NCBI GenBank assembly: GCA_030650025.1 | Contig: JAUSEN010000015.1 | Coordinates: forward strand, 77,728 to 117,577 | Length of the DNA stretch: 39,850 nucleotides | Origin: Candidatus Magasanikiibacteriota bacterium | Lineage (GTDB): Bacteria; Patescibacteriota; Patescibacteriia; Magasanikbacterales; GWA2-37-8 | Direction: 5' to 3' | Part shown: piece after piece, positions 14,140-24,093 of the stretch | Numbering within the stretch: the first letter of the stretch is position 1 | Layout of the letters: the number at the start of each line of letters is the position of its first letter | Notes under the pieces: model-generated | What the model saw: the letters and a program-made list of their open reading frames with translations, nothing else | Told to the model about the DNA's origin: nothing | Databases searched by the model: none | Translations under genes and position numbers: made by a program

Positions 14140-17100
14140 CTAATTTTGGGAAGTGGGTTCATACACAACCACCGGTGACGCCGGATCCACGTTCAAAGTA
14201 ACGTTGCTTTCAAGCGTTTCTGGAGGCTCCGGGGCTGGCGTTACCTCCGGAGTGGTGACCGCGTTATCAGTGGTATTGTCTATTACTACACTGGCTTCTT
14301 CTATAACTTCTGGAGAACTACTCGTGGTGGTGATGGGGAGTGCCGGCAGAAGAGCAGACTCAACAGTAGTGCTGGTAGTATCGTCAGCAATCGGCGCGGT
14401 AAGCAAAGTATCTGTAGTTGTAGTTATAATTACAGACGAAGAACTGCTCGCGGTAACCACAGTTTCCAGGCTAACCGATTCTAAAATTGCAGATTCAGTG
14501 GTCAGTGTATTCGGGGTGTTAAGAGGATCGGTAACAGCCGGAGAAGCAAATGTCTTGGCATTATTCACGGCTAAAGCAATCCAGTTGATAGTCACGTCTT
14601 GCCCGGCCGGTTTACTCAAAACAATCGTAAAACCTTTGACTGTTTTGTTAATTATTATAAACCTGGTATCTTCCGCGAACAATCTCGCAATCTCCTCTTC
14701 TGTGCTGGTAGCCGTGCTGGTTGGCGCGTTCACCGCCACCACCGCACTCACCACCGGTAGATCTAAATACTCATTATCAAATACCACATCTACCAACCTC
14801 TCCCCTACTCTTACAAGCGCGAACCCGGCTGTATCCGCGTTAAAGTACGGCCGCCCGATAAACCAAGCGTCTGATGTAATATTTATATTTTGCCCCAGCG
14901 CTTCGATATTATTTGTTTGCAAGCCTCCAAAAAACATTGCTAAACCCTGGACGTTTAATTTATCGTTGATATCCAAATTATCTACCGAGATATAAGGCGC
15001 GCTACTCGCGAACTTGAATTCGATTGATGAAGATGATGAAGATGAAGTGGAAACCATCTGCGCGGCAAAATTCGCCAAATTATTTTCTACCTCGCTTAAA
15101 CGTTTATCTAGCTTATCTATTCTCTCGGCTATCGCCAATGAAGATGACGCAATTTCGGCTAATTTCAGAGCAAATTCACTAATAATCGGGCTGTCTATTT
15201 TATCTACTTTAATAGTTGGCACGATGAGCCCGCCAGATATGACCATAGCTTCAGCTGTGCTCGTGCCCGCGACATACAAACGCTCCGCGTAAACTTCCTC
15301 GGCGGTAACATTGAGCGGAGTAGAGGTGGTCTCCTCAATTAAGCCACTTTCACTAGAGCTGGCCAGGAGCTCGCCCACGCGGGAATCCAGCAAACTCAAG
15401 CGATTGGTAAAAATATCAAAACCGGTTATCTTCTCGGCCTGAATTTCTTTGGCTGTCAGTTTGCCGCTAAATGCACCGTTGCCAAAACTATCCAAAATAA
15501 TAGCCGGGGTGCTGGAAGCGTTGGCGGTTGAAGAAGAAGTCGTTGAAGAAACGCTTGGGGAAGCGGCAATTACCAACCGACTATTCTCATTAAGATAAAC
15601 ATTAAGATCCTGTTCTGGCAGTGAAACCAAGGCCGCGGTTTGAACCTCGCCTGCCAATAACTTTGGCGTAACCACTTCTAGGCCGGCGATTACTCGATCA
15701 GTAAATAGTTCTGAAACAATGGTAGACGTGGTGATCTGTCGCTTGTCGCTTAATAATTTGGCCAACATGGCGCGGCTCATGTCAAAGTTTTCTGGAATAT
15801 CAGACATATCAAGTCCGCTCTCTTCCATAACTTTATTAGTGGCAATCCCACTAAAAAAGGTGGTATTGACAAGAGTCAAAACTTTACAAACCAAACCGCT
15901 CGAACAGCGCGCGTCTTCCAGAGCTACGCCTACTGTTACCCCCGCTTTAGTCGCGCGCATGGCTATGCCCGGAACCGAAGAAACCGTTAGAGAATCGCCG
16001 GCCTTAATTGGTCCGCTCTCATTAGAAACATTTACAGGCACGCGCCCAGCCAAAGCAATAGGTTTGGCATTTTTGCTACTGCCAAGCAAATCTCCGCCCA
16101 TGACTTGAAACGGTATCGTAGACACCACGCCAACAACCTTACTGCCAGGTTTTGCTTTTTCTAAAATTGAAGTTTTGGCAAGACCAAGAGCAAAAGACTC
16201 GTATTCTAGAGAGCTGGTACTTATGGCCACCAAATCGCCTGGCACCACATCTCCCCTAGCCTCGTACCATTCGGCCAAATCGCCACCCGAAGAGTTGTAA
16301 GAGATAACAACCACAACGCCAGACGCTCCGTCGCCGCCATCACCAGCTACGGCCGTATCAACGCTCGCGGAGCCGCCACCACCGGCGCCATAAGCAATAG
16401 CGTCATCTCCTGCCGAAGTGCCAACTGCTGTAACAATACCGCCGGCTCCCCCGCCGCCCCAATAACTAGCGCCGCCCTGGCCGCCATTCGCCGAATTATC
16501 AATTAAAATAAATCCGTCTTCGCCCGCGGCGCCGCCAAGATTAACATCTCCAGTGGTAGTCGCGACCGCACCCGCGCCTCCAGCCGTAGTCATAATAGTA
16601 AGGGCGGTGTAGGAGGAGTCAGTACCTATCCCGCCAAAACCAGGATTGGCTCCAACTAAAAGCGTAGTGCCAAAGGTTGATGTTGTGCCTTCCGCTCCAT
16701 CCTTGCCATCATTCACGGCGCCGGCTCCGCCCGCGCCAACCGTGAAAGATTGCGAAGAACCCAGTGTCCCGGCCGTAAACATTTCTATAGAGGTGCCGCC
16801 AGAGCCTCCTCCGCCTGCCGCGGTGTTAACCGTAGCGCCATTATTTTCGGCAATACCGCCACCGCCCCCGCCGCCGGTAATAATCACTTGGGCGTAATCA
16901 ATGCCCGCCGGGGCGGTCCAGGTGCCGCCACTACCGGCGGTTGAAGATACATATATACTAAAACTGGAGGTGCTACCACCACCACAGCCAGAGCAATTAG
17001 TAACATTTAGGGTGGTAATGTTAGCTGTAGTAATATTGGCCGTGGTAATGGAGGAACTGGTGTGAGTGGAAGTAGCAAAAGTAGAAGTGCCGCTAGTAAC

Positions 17101-20085
17101 GCCTAACGTGCCGCTCAAAGTGGTGTTGCCGGTTATTGTTACATTACCAGCAGTGCCGGTATCCAAAAAAGTCATAAAATCGTTTCCGTCAGTATCCTCA
17201 ATCGTTAATAAACCTTCGCCAGAATCGAACGCGCGAATGCCGCTAAACAGAAGAAAATTAATGCCAGTGTTTAGAGCGTTGGTTATGTTTGAGGCCGAGG
17301 CATCAAGAGCATCGGTAATACCGCCGTCTACTCCCGACGAAGTAATTACTAAACCATCGGTTACTGTACTGGCCGTGGTTTCGGCATTGTCTAAAGTAAT
17401 CAACGCTTCGGTAGTGGCATTAATCGCGGTGTTTTGGTTAATAATACGCAGTCCATACTGGGAGCCAATGGTACTACTGTTGATTAAAGAAATGTTCACC
17501 CCGGTCATAGTGTCGGTACTCGCGGCGCTGGTGGAAGCGGTAATATTTAAAGCGTGGTTAGAATTACTACTCGCGACCGGCGCGCCTTGCTCAAAATTAA
17601 TAGAAACGCCATCAGTGCCGTCAGTAGTTACCGCGAAACCAACATTAGTAAGAGAAACCATGTCCACGCTGGCTCCCGGCGCCGCGCTGGCTGTAATTTG
17701 AATATTAGAATCCGCGTCAGCCGAGAGGACTAAATCCCCGGTTCCGGCTGGAGTAATGGTGAGGGCTTCGTTCGTGGCTGTGGTCAGGTCAGTCGTGACT
17801 CCCGAGAAAGTGGCGCTCCCTGTAAAGGTAGTGGCTGGGAGCGTGGCGGCCGTGGCTACATTCAAAGTGGTAATGTTAGCGGTTGTGATGGTCGAACTGG
17901 TTTGGGTGGTAGTTGTAAAAGTTGAAGTGGCGTTAAAAGTATTTTGGCCAGTAAAAATATTGTTGTCCGATAATGATACTCCGCCACCACAACCATTACA
18001 GGTAGTGACATTGAGGGTCGTAATAGTGGATGAGACGATTGTGGTGGTGGTGAACGTCGTAGTGGCCGTGAACGTCGTGGTATTGGAAAAAGTATTAAGT
18101 CCGGTAAAGGTCTGATTAATGGCAAGACCAGCCAAAGTGGCCGAGACAGTGGGTAGTGTCATGGTGGTGCTGTCTGTGCCGGTGAAAGCAATGGAATTGT
18201 TGGCAGTCAAAGTTTTACCGGCCGCGATGGTTAAGACATTGGTGCCATTGTTCGTGATGGTAAGGCCGTTAAAAGTAGTGCCTAAGATGGTGGTGCCATT
18301 AAGAGTGGAAATATTGGCCGTGGTGATGGTCGAAGAAGTAAAAGTTGAAGTGCGGAAAGTGGTGGTGGCGTTAAATGTGGTGGTATTGGAAAAAGTATTA
18401 AGTCCCGAGAGCGTGTTGTTGCCCGTGAAAGTCTGGTTGGCATCTAGAAGAGCGATGTTCGCGGTGTCTGATAAATCAGCCGAAGCCAAACCTGTGACTG
18501 TGGCCGAACCAAAGTCAGCTAGGGTGGTGATGTGGAGATTAGTGATGGTGCTCGAAGCTTGGGTGGTGGTGGTAAAAGTCGTGGTGGCGCTAAAGATTCC
18601 GAGGTTAGTCACTGTCAAACTGTCGAGGGTGGCGAGGCCCGTGGTAGAGAGAGTGCCGGTAACCGCGAGATTGGTGAGACGGGCGTTACCCGTGATGGCG
18701 ATGACCCCCGCGCTCGTAATGGCATTGAGGTTAGCAAGGCCGGTCGTGGAAAGCGTACCGGTAACCGCGAGGTTGGATAACAAGGCGTTGCCTGTGACAG
18801 AGAGGACACCCGCGCTCGTAATACTGTTGAGGTCAGCGAGGCCCGTGGTGGTGAGTGTGCCGGTGACCGTGGTATTTGGTAAGTTGGCGCTGGCTCCTGT
18901 CACGCTTAAAATACCACCGATGGTACCGTTGTTCGTGACTGTGAGAGTTTTAATAGTGGAAGTAGCGAGCGTTGAAGTAGCGTTGAAAGTATTAAGTCCG
19001 GTAAATGTCTGGTCAATGGCAAGGTAAGCCAGGCTCGAAGTATTGTTCAGTTGGTTGATTGAGAGGCCGAAAATAGACGCCCCGGTGAAGTTGGCCGCGG
19101 TGGTGACATTTAAATACCCGATACTGGAACTGGCTTGAGTGGTGGTGGTGAACGTCGTGGTGGCGTTAAAAATATTTAGTCCCGTAAAAGTATTATTAGC
19201 AGCCAGCGAAACTCCCCCACCACAACCATTACAAGTTGTTACATTTAAAGTATCAATATTCGCGGTCGTAATAGTAGTGCTTGAAAAAGTGCTGGTGCGG
19301 AACGTCGTGGTGGCCGCGAAACTACTGCCTCCGCTCACTGTTAAACCGCCGCCAAAAACCCCGCCTCCGGTGAGCGACAAAGCCCCGGCCGAAGAAATAG
19401 AATTCAACGCCGAAAAAAACTGGATACTGCCAAGGCCGCCGCCCCCTTGCAAAACCAAAGCATTCGTGCCAGTCGCGTTGATCTGCGGATCCGTGCCGCC
19501 CAAAATTAAATTATCGCCTGTCAACACCGGTATTTTACTACTGGTAGCGCTCTGGGCTGGAGAAAATCCTCCGACCGTATTAGCATTGATCGCGTAACCA
19601 CTCGCGAGAATTCTTTGGCGGGGGCTTAAACTTTCAAAGCTTACGCCCGCGCACGACGCCCCAACTTGAGCCGCCACTTCGATATTTAAATAAACCGTGT
19701 CTGTATTTTGAAAATCAAAATCAAGGAGGTTCCCACCCGCGGACACGTCCCCAATGCCAACGTTAAAAACTCCATTCTTAACATTAACAGTCATCGTAGA
19801 CGTGGCGCCGGACGGCCAAAGTTTAGTGCCTGCCCCTACAGTCGCGGAGTCATAAAAAGAAAAACGAAAACAATAATTCGTACCATTGCCACCTAATAAA
19901 TCTCCGCTGGAATTTAAAAGCCTGCCCTGATGGCTAATAATTTCAGGCACGCCCGTAGCCGCTTTGGCTACCAAGAAATTTGTCACAACCGAGGCTGCCA
20001 AAAAAACAAAAACAACCAACACCACTTGCGTGTATTTCAAATTATAGCGGCCTTGTTTCCACTCTTTAAGGTTTACTTTTTTCAT
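14140..20085 (-). CDS. Giant (1981 aa) Ser/Thr-rich repetitive surface/fibre adhesin with a Gly-rich domain
   Basis: N-terminal TM/signal anchor, SHQGRLLNSSGDLLGGNGTNYCFRFSFYD, repeated TTTFTTTTQASSTITTLNVTTCNGCGGG units, Gly-rich segment (IITGGGGGGGIAENNG...), DLAEWYEARGDVVPGDLVAIS/LAGRVPVNVSNESGPIKAGDSL tail-fibre-like segment, and a coiled coil. Confidence 0.9.
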   Translation of the reverse strand: MKKVNLKEWKQGRYNLKYTQVVLVVFVFLAASVVTNFLVAKAATGVPEIISHQGRLLNSSGDLLGGNGTNYCFRFSFYDSATVGAGTKLWPSGATSTMTVNVKNGVFNVGIGDVSAGGNLLDFDFQNTDTVYLNIEVAAQVGASCAGVSFESLSPRQRILASGYAINANTVGGFSPAQSATSSKIPVLTGDNLILGGTDPQINATGTNALVLQGGGGLGSIQFFSALNSISSAGALSLTGGGVFGGGLTVSGGSSFAATTTFRTSTFSSTTITTANIDTLNVTTCNGCGGGVSLAANNTFTGLNIFNATTTFTTTTQASSSIGYLNVTTAANFTGASIFGLSINQLNNTSSLAYLAIDQTFTGLNTFNATSTLATSTIKTLTVTNNGTIGGILSVTGASANLPNTTVTGTLTTTGLADLNSITSAGVLSVTGNALLSNLAVTGTLSTTGLANLNAITSAGVIAITGNARLTNLAVTGTLSTTGLATLDSLTVTNLGIFSATTTFTTTTQASSTITNLHITTLADFGSATVTGLASADLSDTANIALLDANQTFTGNNTLSGLNTFSNTTTFNATTTFRTSTFTSSTITTANISTLNGTTILGTTFNGLTITNNGTNVLTIAAGKTLTANNSIAFTGTDSTTMTLPTVSATLAGLAINQTFTGLNTFSNTTTFTATTTFTTTTIVSSTITTLNVTTCNGCGGGVSLSDNNIFTGQNTFNATSTFTTTTQTSSTITTANITTLNVATAATLPATTFTGSATFSGVTTDLTTATNEALTITPAGTGDLVLSADADSNIQITASAAPGASVDMVSLTNVGFAVTTDGTDGVSINFEQGAPVASSNSNHALNITASTSAASTDTMTGVNISLINSSTIGSQYGLRIINQNTAINATTEALITLDNAETTASTVTDGLVITSSGVDGGITDALDASASNITNALNTGINFLLFSGIRAFDSGEGLLTIEDTDGNDFMTFLDTGTAGNVTITGNTTLSGTLGVTSGTSTFATSTHTSSSITTANITTANITTLNVTNCSGCGGGSTSSFSIYVSSTAGSGGTWTAPAGIDYAQVIITGGGGGGGIAENNGATVNTAAGGGGSGGTSIEMFTAGTLGSSQSFTVGAGGAGAVNDGKDGAEGTTSTFGTTLLVGANPGFGGIGTDSSYTALTIMTTAGGAGAVATTTGDVNLGGAAGEDGFILIDNSANGGQGGASYWGGGGAGGIVTAVGTSAGDDAIAYGAGGGGSASVDTAVAGDGGDGASGVVVVISYNSSGGDLAEWYEARGDVVPGDLVAISTSSLEYESFALGLAKTSILEKAKPGSKVVGVVSTIPFQVMGGDLLGSSKNAKPIALAGRVPVNVSNESGPIKAGDSLTVSSVPGIAMRATKAGVTVGVALEDARCSSGLVCKVLTLVNTTFFSGIATNKVMEESGLDMSDIPENFDMSRAMLAKLLSDKRQITTSTIVSELFTDRVIAGLEVVTPKLLAGEVQTAALVSLPEQDLNVYLNENSRLVIAASPSVSSTTSSSTANASSTPAIILDSFGNGAFSGKLTAKEIQAEKITGFDIFTNRLSLLDSRVGELLASSSESGLIEETTSTPLNVTAEEVYAERLYVAGTSTAEAMVISGGLIVPTIKVDKIDSPIISEFALKLAEIASSSLAIAERIDKLDKRLSEVENNLANFAAQMVSTSSSSSSSIEFKFASSAPYISVDNLDINDKLNVQGLAMFFGGLQTNNIEALGQNINITSDAWFIGRPYFNADTAGFALVRVGERLVDVVFDNEYLDLPVVSAVVAVNAPTSTATSTEEEIARLFAEDTRFIIINKTVKGFTIVLSKPAGQDVTINWIALAVNNAKTFASPAVTDPLNTPNTLTTESAILESVSLETVVTASSSSSVIITTTTDTLLTAPIADDTTSTTVESALLPALPITTTSSSPEVIEEASVVIDNTTDNAVTTPEVTPAPEPPETLESNVTLNVDPASPVVVYEPTSQN
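16965..19345 (-). repeat. Low-complexity/degenerate repeat region in the giant adhesin gene
   Basis: Recurrent DNA motifs such as gtggtggtgaacgtcgtggtggc(g)ttaaa and gtaatgttagc(g/t)gt, plus three CxxCGGG blocks (about 16975, 17985 and 19215). Confidence 0.7.
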
Positions 20086-22686: not shown

Positions 22687-22721
22687 TAGGGGCATGGTCG
22701 CCTGGGGCGACCATGCCCCTA
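22687..22721. repeat. Perfect 16-bp inverted repeat hairpin TAGGGGCATGGTCGCC-TGG-GGCGACCATGCCCCTA
   Basis: Direct reading. The outer part (TAGGGGCATG...CATGCCCCTA) is shared with 24062-24093. Confidence 0.9.
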
Positions 22722-22738
22722 CAAAAACACCTAAATCA

Positions 22739-22767
22739 TTGACTTTTTTTATAAATAATGTTAGGCT
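22739..22767 (+). promoter_or_regulatory. Candidate promoter of the GC-rich cassette (TTGACT-N17-TAGGCT)
   Basis: Near-consensus -35 with 17-bp spacing to TAnnnT, in a short AT-rich stretch directly upstream of the GC-rich gene. Confidence 0.5.
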
Positions 22768-22807
22768 CGGATTACACCTCAAACCCCTCCGGAAAGGAGG
22801 CAACCCC

Positions 22808-23263
22808 ATGTTCATCCGTCGCCGCATCACCGACCCGGTCGCGATCCACGCGGCCTGTGTCCGCTGGCTCTCCCTCCTGTTCGACCCGGCGAAGTTCGCC
22901 GGGACCCCGCTCGAAAGAATGATCAGTAGGCACAAGGCGCTCCTCGTCCCGCGCTTCGATGGTCGCAGTGGGCTCACCTTCTTCGCCCAGGCCGCGCACG
23001 AGGTCGAAGGGCACCTGCGCCGCGCGGCCGAGGGCAAGATCGACCCGAAAGTCCAGGCCGGCACCATCTCCACCAACATCGGTGGCACGATGATGGAAGT
23101 CACGCTCTACTGGGTCGGCGTCGACCCCGCACAGAGCTTCAACCTGCACGTGGCCATCTCGGACCAGGGGCTCGTCGCGGATGTCTGGAGTACGGTCCCC
23201 GTCAGCTCGGAGGACGAGATCGACTCGCGCGCTTCGGGCGAGGCCCACTCGAGCCGGATCTAG
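22808..23263 (+). CDS. GC-rich hypothetical protein (151 aa), no recognised family
   Basis: Strong SD (GGAAAGGAGG, 7 nt before ATG). Nearly all third codon positions are G/C, unlike the AT-leaning codons of neighbouring genes. MFIRRRITDPVAIHAACVRWLSLLFDPAKFAGTPLERM... Confidence 0.75.
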   Translation: MFIRRRITDPVAIHAACVRWLSLLFDPAKFAGTPLERMISRHKALLVPRFDGRSGLTFFAQAAHEVEGHLRRAAEGKIDPKVQAGTISTNIGGTMMEVTLYWVGVDPAQSFNLHVAISDQGLVADVWSTVPVSSEDEIDSRASGEAHSSRI

Positions 23264-23303
23264 CCCCCCCCGACCGGCCACCATCGCCTTCTCAAGCTTC
23301 AGG

Positions 23304-23331
23304 CGGGGCAGGCTTCATAAAGGCCTCCCCG
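23304..23331 (+). other. GC-rich hairpin downstream of the GC-rich gene
   Basis: CGGGG(c)AGGC-ttcataaag-GCCTCCCCG, 9 bp with a one-base bulge. Confidence 0.6.
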
Positions 23332-23370
23332 TATCTATGACTACAAAATTTGTATTTATAGATATGGAGG
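23324..23370 (+). other. Long AT-rich hairpin overlapping the previous hairpin
   Basis: CCTCC-ccg-TATCTATGACTACAAA-a-TTTGTATTTATAGATA-t-GGAGG; 16-nt inner arms with one mismatch and one G-U. Confidence 0.6.
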
Positions 23371-23443
23371 TCTCAAAGCAGAAATAAAATGCCTTACGAA
23401 AGTGGGGTATTTTTTTATTTTGGTCCTATCAAACACCTTGCCC

Positions 23444-23496: not shown

Positions 23497-23631
23497 ATGG
23501 GAATTAACACCGCTCTGCGCGCCCGCCTGAAGCAGGCCCAAAAAAACACCCGTATCGGCAAACGGGTGGCGCGTACAACCAAGAAATTGCGTCGCAACAA
23601 CTATCTCCAAAAACCGCGCATTTTAAAATAA
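23497..23631 (+). CDS. Small (44 aa) highly basic protein
   Basis: MGINTALRARLKQAQKNTRIGKRVARTTKKLRRNNYLQKPRILK; flanked by a plausible promoter and a terminator. The longer in-frame ORF from 23389 reads through the promoter and is unlikely. Confidence 0.6.
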   Translation: MGINTALRARLKQAQKNTRIGKRVARTTKKLRRNNYLQKPRILK

Positions 23632-24061: not shown

Positions 24062-24093
24062 GAGTAGGGGCATGATATATCATGCCCCTACTC
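24062..24093. repeat. Perfect 32-bp palindrome GAGTAGGGGCATGATATATCATGCCCCTACTC
   Basis: Direct reading; no unpaired centre. Overlaps the stop codon of the flavodoxin gene. Confidence 0.92.

Follow-up and report, generated by a model that had tools for sequence, protein, structure and literature searches.

IS200/IS605-type elements and PATEs have imperfect hairpins with unpaired bases that are recognised on one strand, and phage morons carry a promoter and a terminator. Morons are horizontally acquired, independently transcribed genes (PMC6469090). In integrons, the folded attC sites carry extrahelical bases on one side (PMC3053210). The units that we describe here from Magasanikbacteria resemble each of these systems in part. 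Like integron cassettes with their attC sites, they hold one mostly orphan gene each and an imperfect, strand-asymmetric folded 3′ site, and these sites are alike within a lineage. Unlike integron cassettes, they have their own promoters, are singly scattered, and show neither GTTRRRY/RYYYAAC boxes nor an integrase above cut-off; the bulge is also 2–6 nt, where attC has two single extrahelical bases. As judged by sequence, they match a phage moron in being single genes of atypical composition with their own promoter and terminator, but they lie between chromosomal housekeeping genes, and a structured common tail is no moron feature. An imperfect hairpin with unpaired bases also recalls IS200/IS605 elements and PATEs, yet here it has so far been seen at the 3′ end only, and the host genome has no Y1 transposase. 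Finally, the 3′ hairpins, partly with T-runs, are like intrinsic terminators, except that a stem of ~20 or more pairs with a 5′ bulge is almost confined to GC-rich one-gene units. We found no description of such cassettes in the literature searched, a collection whose coverage lacked many journals.

The starting point was a single GC-rich ORF in a window of 39,850 nt (the whole stretch of DNA analysed; G000:C4:77728-117577) from a genome of 1.03 Mb. Its ATG lies at 22808 and its TAG stop at 23261-23263 in window coordinates, with the following features in and around it:

22739..22767, + strand: promoter-like sequence TTGACT-N17-TAGGCT in a 72% AT stretch
22794..22800, + strand: Shine-Dalgarno sequence AAGGAGG, 7 nt upstream of the ATG
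22808..23263, + strand: GC-rich orphan ORF of 151 aa, GC3 0.89, no family match
23264..23318, + strand: GC-rich 3′ leader of the tail; folds weakly, no better than shuffles (z 0.52)
23321..23373, + strand: tail hairpin whose 5′ arm carries a 2-nt bulge (z −6.5)
23386..23413, + strand: terminator-like hairpin (GAAA loop, T-run) belonging to the shared tail (z −4.3)

GC at codon positions 1, 2, and 3 of the ORF is 0.64, 0.48, and 0.89, the pattern of a coding frame, while the long antisense ORFs of the GC-rich stretch lack this pattern. A two-state composition model places an island of GC 0.68 at 22784-23313. Long genes of the host genome have a GC3 of 0.50 ± 0.07 (sd), and the ORF therefore lies more than 5 sd out, bearing out the alien composition proposed in the first-pass annotation. 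Its neighbours are chromosomal, encoding phosphoglucose isomerase, a PEP-utiliser-domain protein, a flavodoxin, and 2-oxoacid:ferredoxin oxidoreductase subunits. Immediately past the cassette (23497-23631) is an Arg/Lys-rich ORF of 44 codons with its own terminator-like repeat and no family match, and elsewhere in the window (14140-20085) a 1981-aa protein with locally high GC belongs to no NCBIfam family.

The first-pass annotation had recognised no protein family in the 151-aa product, and profile searches agreed. The protein matched no Pfam, NCBIfam, or PADLOC family, and its comparison with PHROG gave nothing significant, with a match at chance level only. It was not found in 94 relatives and was missing from 379 other genomes of the phylum, and genome, viral, phage, and plasmid collections held no close homologues. 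Phage records and viral contigs gave no match, and no prophage was seen at the window. An AlphaFold model built from the single sequence without an alignment reached a pLDDT of 58.6, with no fold match at E ≤0.001, and is too poor for interpretation. By these searches, the protein is an orphan.

To place this gene in its genomic context, we surveyed 656 kb of its own genome with gene calling that gave no bonus for Shine-Dalgarno sites. GC3 was bimodal: 527 genes were ordinary (median 0.50), and 23 were GC-rich (GC3 of at least 0.70). In this classification, the GC-rich codon model was first trained on Shine-Dalgarno-led ORFs, and the second class was cut at median GC3 + 0.2. Strong Shine-Dalgarno sites preceded 83% of GC-rich genes vs. 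21% of ordinary genes, and the median gap to the next upstream gene was 243 nt vs. 81 nt. Across four genomes, GC-rich genes never lay within 20 nt of an upstream gene, as 25–47% of ordinary genes did. The class was also present in the three related genomes sampled. The proposal of an autonomous one-gene unit belonging to a dispersed class thus stood.

The GC-rich proteins were mutually unrelated, except for one tandem pair and one partial match. Among 47 scanned, a minority matched diverse Pfam families (e.g., NUDIX, guanylate kinase, response regulator, UPRTase, and 2OG oxygenase), and the rest matched none; recognisable cargo included MTHFR (L202), cytidine deaminase (L138), guanylate kinase (L091), and NUDIX (L099). 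In one relative (G021, L118:15031-19499), four GC-rich genes are clustered on one strand, and two of them are tandem duplicates, 71% identical. Another family of the order (G052) had 10 GC-rich genes, 90% with Shine-Dalgarno sites, but this bulged hairpin was absent, indicating that the gene class is wider than the bulged tail. The same genome carries GC-rich, Shine-Dalgarno-led one-gene units with another recurring tail, CAATCATTTTTAC...GTAGAA..ATTG (L181-L190), which by eye also seems to be 5′-bulged. In 200 kb of a genome from another order (G091), neither the GC-rich class nor the bulged hairpin was detected.

The signals said to frame the gene fared unevenly at the 5′ end. In the candidate promoter (TTGACT at 22739, TAGGCT at 22762, spacer 17 nt), the −35 with its T-run is good and the −10 is poor. 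The AAGGAGG is present, but the hairpin described around it folded no better than shuffles (z 0.13). The pattern TTGACTTTTT-N20-50-GGAGG-N3-13-ATG occurred at 48 places in 32 of 95 genomes, with 0 in a backwards control, and most matches led into short ORFs with GC3 above their surroundings, often followed by GC-rich hairpins. Promoter and leader, whose recurrence the first-pass annotation had suggested checking, were not found repeated as a sequence block; only AT-rich −35/T-run matches, which are generic promoter signals, recurred. Upstream regions of the units had no shared blocks comparable to the tails, and sequence comparison of the 150–200 nt upstream gave few short common matches and no common block. 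An inverted repeat at 22687-22721, which had been noted just upstream of the cassette, is exact. However, it is 1 of 10 copies of a palindrome scattered over the host genome, a separate genome-wide family, and is thus not cassette-specific. A second window copy of this TAGGGGCA...TGCCCCTA palindrome lies at 24065-24090, and the exact pattern is absent from 26 relatives.

By contrast, the 3′ flank recurred. The first-pass annotation had placed a pair of overlapping hairpins here. The first 3′ hairpin (23264-23318) did not survive folding against shuffles, whereas the hairpin at 23321-23373 and the one after it at 23386-23413 proved stronger than claimed. The former has an outer stem AGGCCTCC/GGAGGTCT, an inner stem, one mismatch, and an AT loop. 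Folding of 3′ regions revealed a recurring form with an outer stem of 7–13 pairs and 2–6 unpaired nt on the 5′ arm only, enclosing an inner stem that often contains a 1x1 mismatch and is capped by an AT-rich loop. A loose screen of the genome returned thousands of matches (2133 with 5′ bulges vs. 2153 with 3′ bulges) and was uninformative, so it was replaced by a strict descriptor. This gave 14 matches in 656 kb and 0 in shuffled sequence; after removal of AT-tract terminators, each of the remaining 8 came immediately 3′ of a GC-rich unit of its own strand. Most descriptor matches in genomes from another genus (G021) and a third genus (G022) were also just 3′ of GC-rich units.

Counting hairpins ≤260 nt from a gene in four genomes, we found the 5′-bulged form behind 14 of 52 GC-rich genes but only 3 of 1395 ordinary genes (p 6e-19, a value that overstates the evidence because genes of related species are not independent, although each genome with hits agrees). 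A mirror control with the bulge on the 3′ arm showed no significant difference (1/52 vs. 7/1395, p 0.25). One genome (G017) had the bulged hairpin in 0 of 6 GC-rich genes. The idea that all 3′ hairpins share one fold was rejected, with about a quarter of GC-rich genes passing the descriptor.

Direct tail comparison and a stem pattern revealed a relative of the window tail, although BLAST over 95 genomes returned only the query tail itself at E 0.001. This tail, behind an unrelated 156-aa ORF in G021, matches the window tail at 73% over 108 nt, with both hairpins included. The stem pattern of the window tail had a single match among GTDB species genomes, behind a GC-rich unit of a Magasanikbacteria genome, and this was the same tail. 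Within the host genome, the units L074:2352 and L102:8372 have tails 89% alike over 79 nt. The third genus (g7) has a tail family whose members stand behind an orphan (L044), the cytidine deaminase L138, a similar orphan pair (L139/L137), and the methylenetetrahydrofolate reductase L202 (E 1.4e-81 for that assignment). Across its five members, 97.6% of cells are paired and six pairs have changed on both sides, a covariation above all 500 shuffles; these tails end in T-runs, as terminators do. Further repeats beside the L044 unit turned out to be tRNA genes. Sequence comparison thus shows that homologous tails follow genes that are themselves not homologous, and both G021 and the g7 family show the 3′ flank recurring next to different GC-rich ORFs. 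For this flank, then, the tail is not unique to the locus, no ordinary vertical family was found, and many independent assemblies argue against a chimera. The cassette idea therefore applies to the 3′ flank and fails for the promoter and the inverted repeat.

The most likely role of the tail is at the RNA level, where it would form the 3′ end of the transcript and serve as terminator and end protection. In 18 of 24 hairpins (p 0.001), the coding strand formed a more stable fold than the complementary strand, in a test partly biased since the descriptor let G-T pairs through on the coding strand. The coding strand folds better because the odd pairs are G-U on that strand, which favours a role in the transcript. 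Four hairpins were found without the descriptor, and the coding strand is favoured in two of these but not in the other two. A second role of the tail as a recombination point is possible.

Mobility of the units and its mechanism are inferred. At a tRNA-flanked site in g7, one genome (G006) carries a unit, another (G015) a different gene, and a third (G022), by eye, a serine-recombinase-like gene; the last, at L133:2985-4223, is the gene beside the tRNA site where G006 has its cassette. The orphans beside one conserved gene block differ between G021 and G017. These comparisons of occupied and empty sites (G021 vs. G017; G006 vs. G015 and G022) showed variable content and no clean junction, with flanks differing by ~25% between the species compared. 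The earlier suggestion of a mobile or horizontally acquired cassette is therefore supported as to foreign look and dispersal, while movement is represented only by variable content at related sites. The evidence for a foreign origin is composition and patchy distribution. Searches for mobilising enzymes found the integron integrase (TIGR02249) above cut-off in 0 of 95 genomes, the best score in the host genome being 92 bits against a cut-off of 265, and a Y1 transposase (PF01797) not in the host genome but in 5 of 21 family members. The GTTRRRY/RYYYAAC box pair was absent from 20 tail hairpins in either orientation.

These observations can be read in several ways. The units could be ordinary horizontally acquired single genes, moron-like, that have only strong transcription and translation signals in common and whose recurring tails are reused terminators, spread by short tracts of gene conversion. 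We consider this possible, though on the unlikely side: the promoter, Shine-Dalgarno site, and terminators are of a generic type, the bulged hairpin is absent from many units, and g7 tails end in T-runs, yet it is not obvious why ordinary terminators should have a one-sided, one-strand bulge confined to the class, and tails common to different genes across genera are hard to explain by chance. In a bolder reading, promoter-bearing single genes might be captured and moved by an unknown enzyme through the 5′-bulged 3′ hairpin, recognised by its structure, at the DNA level or via an RNA intermediate; such an undescribed system seems unlikely. An integron-like, structure-guided cassette, whose bulged hairpin would be a folded single-stranded recombination site like attC at which a recombinase inserts units, is also unlikely. 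One gene per unit, a 3′ tail in fixed orientation, a strand-asymmetric bulge, structure kept more than sequence, lineage-specific tail families, and unrelated cargo would all suit it. However, none of 95 genomes has an IntI that scores above the curated cut-off, 20 hairpins contain no box pair, the units carry promoters and are mostly scattered rather than arrayed, and the coding strand, not the bottom strand, folds better.

Two further readings were considered. The genes could be native, with their high GC the outcome of selection on short mRNAs that are highly expressed, in keeping with the strong promoters and Shine-Dalgarno sites, which suggest high expression, and with composition shifts near transcript ends. 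We regard this as very unlikely, since orphans make up most of the proteins, no other genome searched has the window protein, the recognisable members are scattered enzyme families, and GC3 is bimodal even though a fifth of ordinary genes also have Shine-Dalgarno sites. An assembly chimera or contaminant insert would account for the sharp composition change near 22784 and 23313, but with dozens of units in one genome, the same architecture in many independent assemblies, and a common tail that crosses genera, it is hardly credible.

Instead, the window ORF is probably one of several dozen monocistronic “cassette” genes lying between Magasanikbacteria's own genes, acquired from elsewhere, with tails recombined onto new genes. 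In each unit, a GC-rich coding sequence, in most cases an orphan, would be preceded by an AT-rich promoter of its own and a strong Shine-Dalgarno site and followed by a structured 3′ tail. The genes may have been acquired from outside and the tails joined to new arrivals by recombination, and a joined tail would let a newly captured gene be expressed as a separate transcript with an end of its own. That tails of one kind stand behind many unrelated, foreign-looking genes suggests a type of gene cassette that has not been described.

The genomes of CPR bacteria are small, and their gain of new genes is poorly understood. A class of autonomous one-gene units with a common tail would offer a handle on CPR accessory genes, which can be found by a GC3 outlier plus a tail hairpin, and a GC-rich orphan should not automatically be taken for contamination in such a genome. 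A recognisable class would also make the mechanism of gene capture testable.
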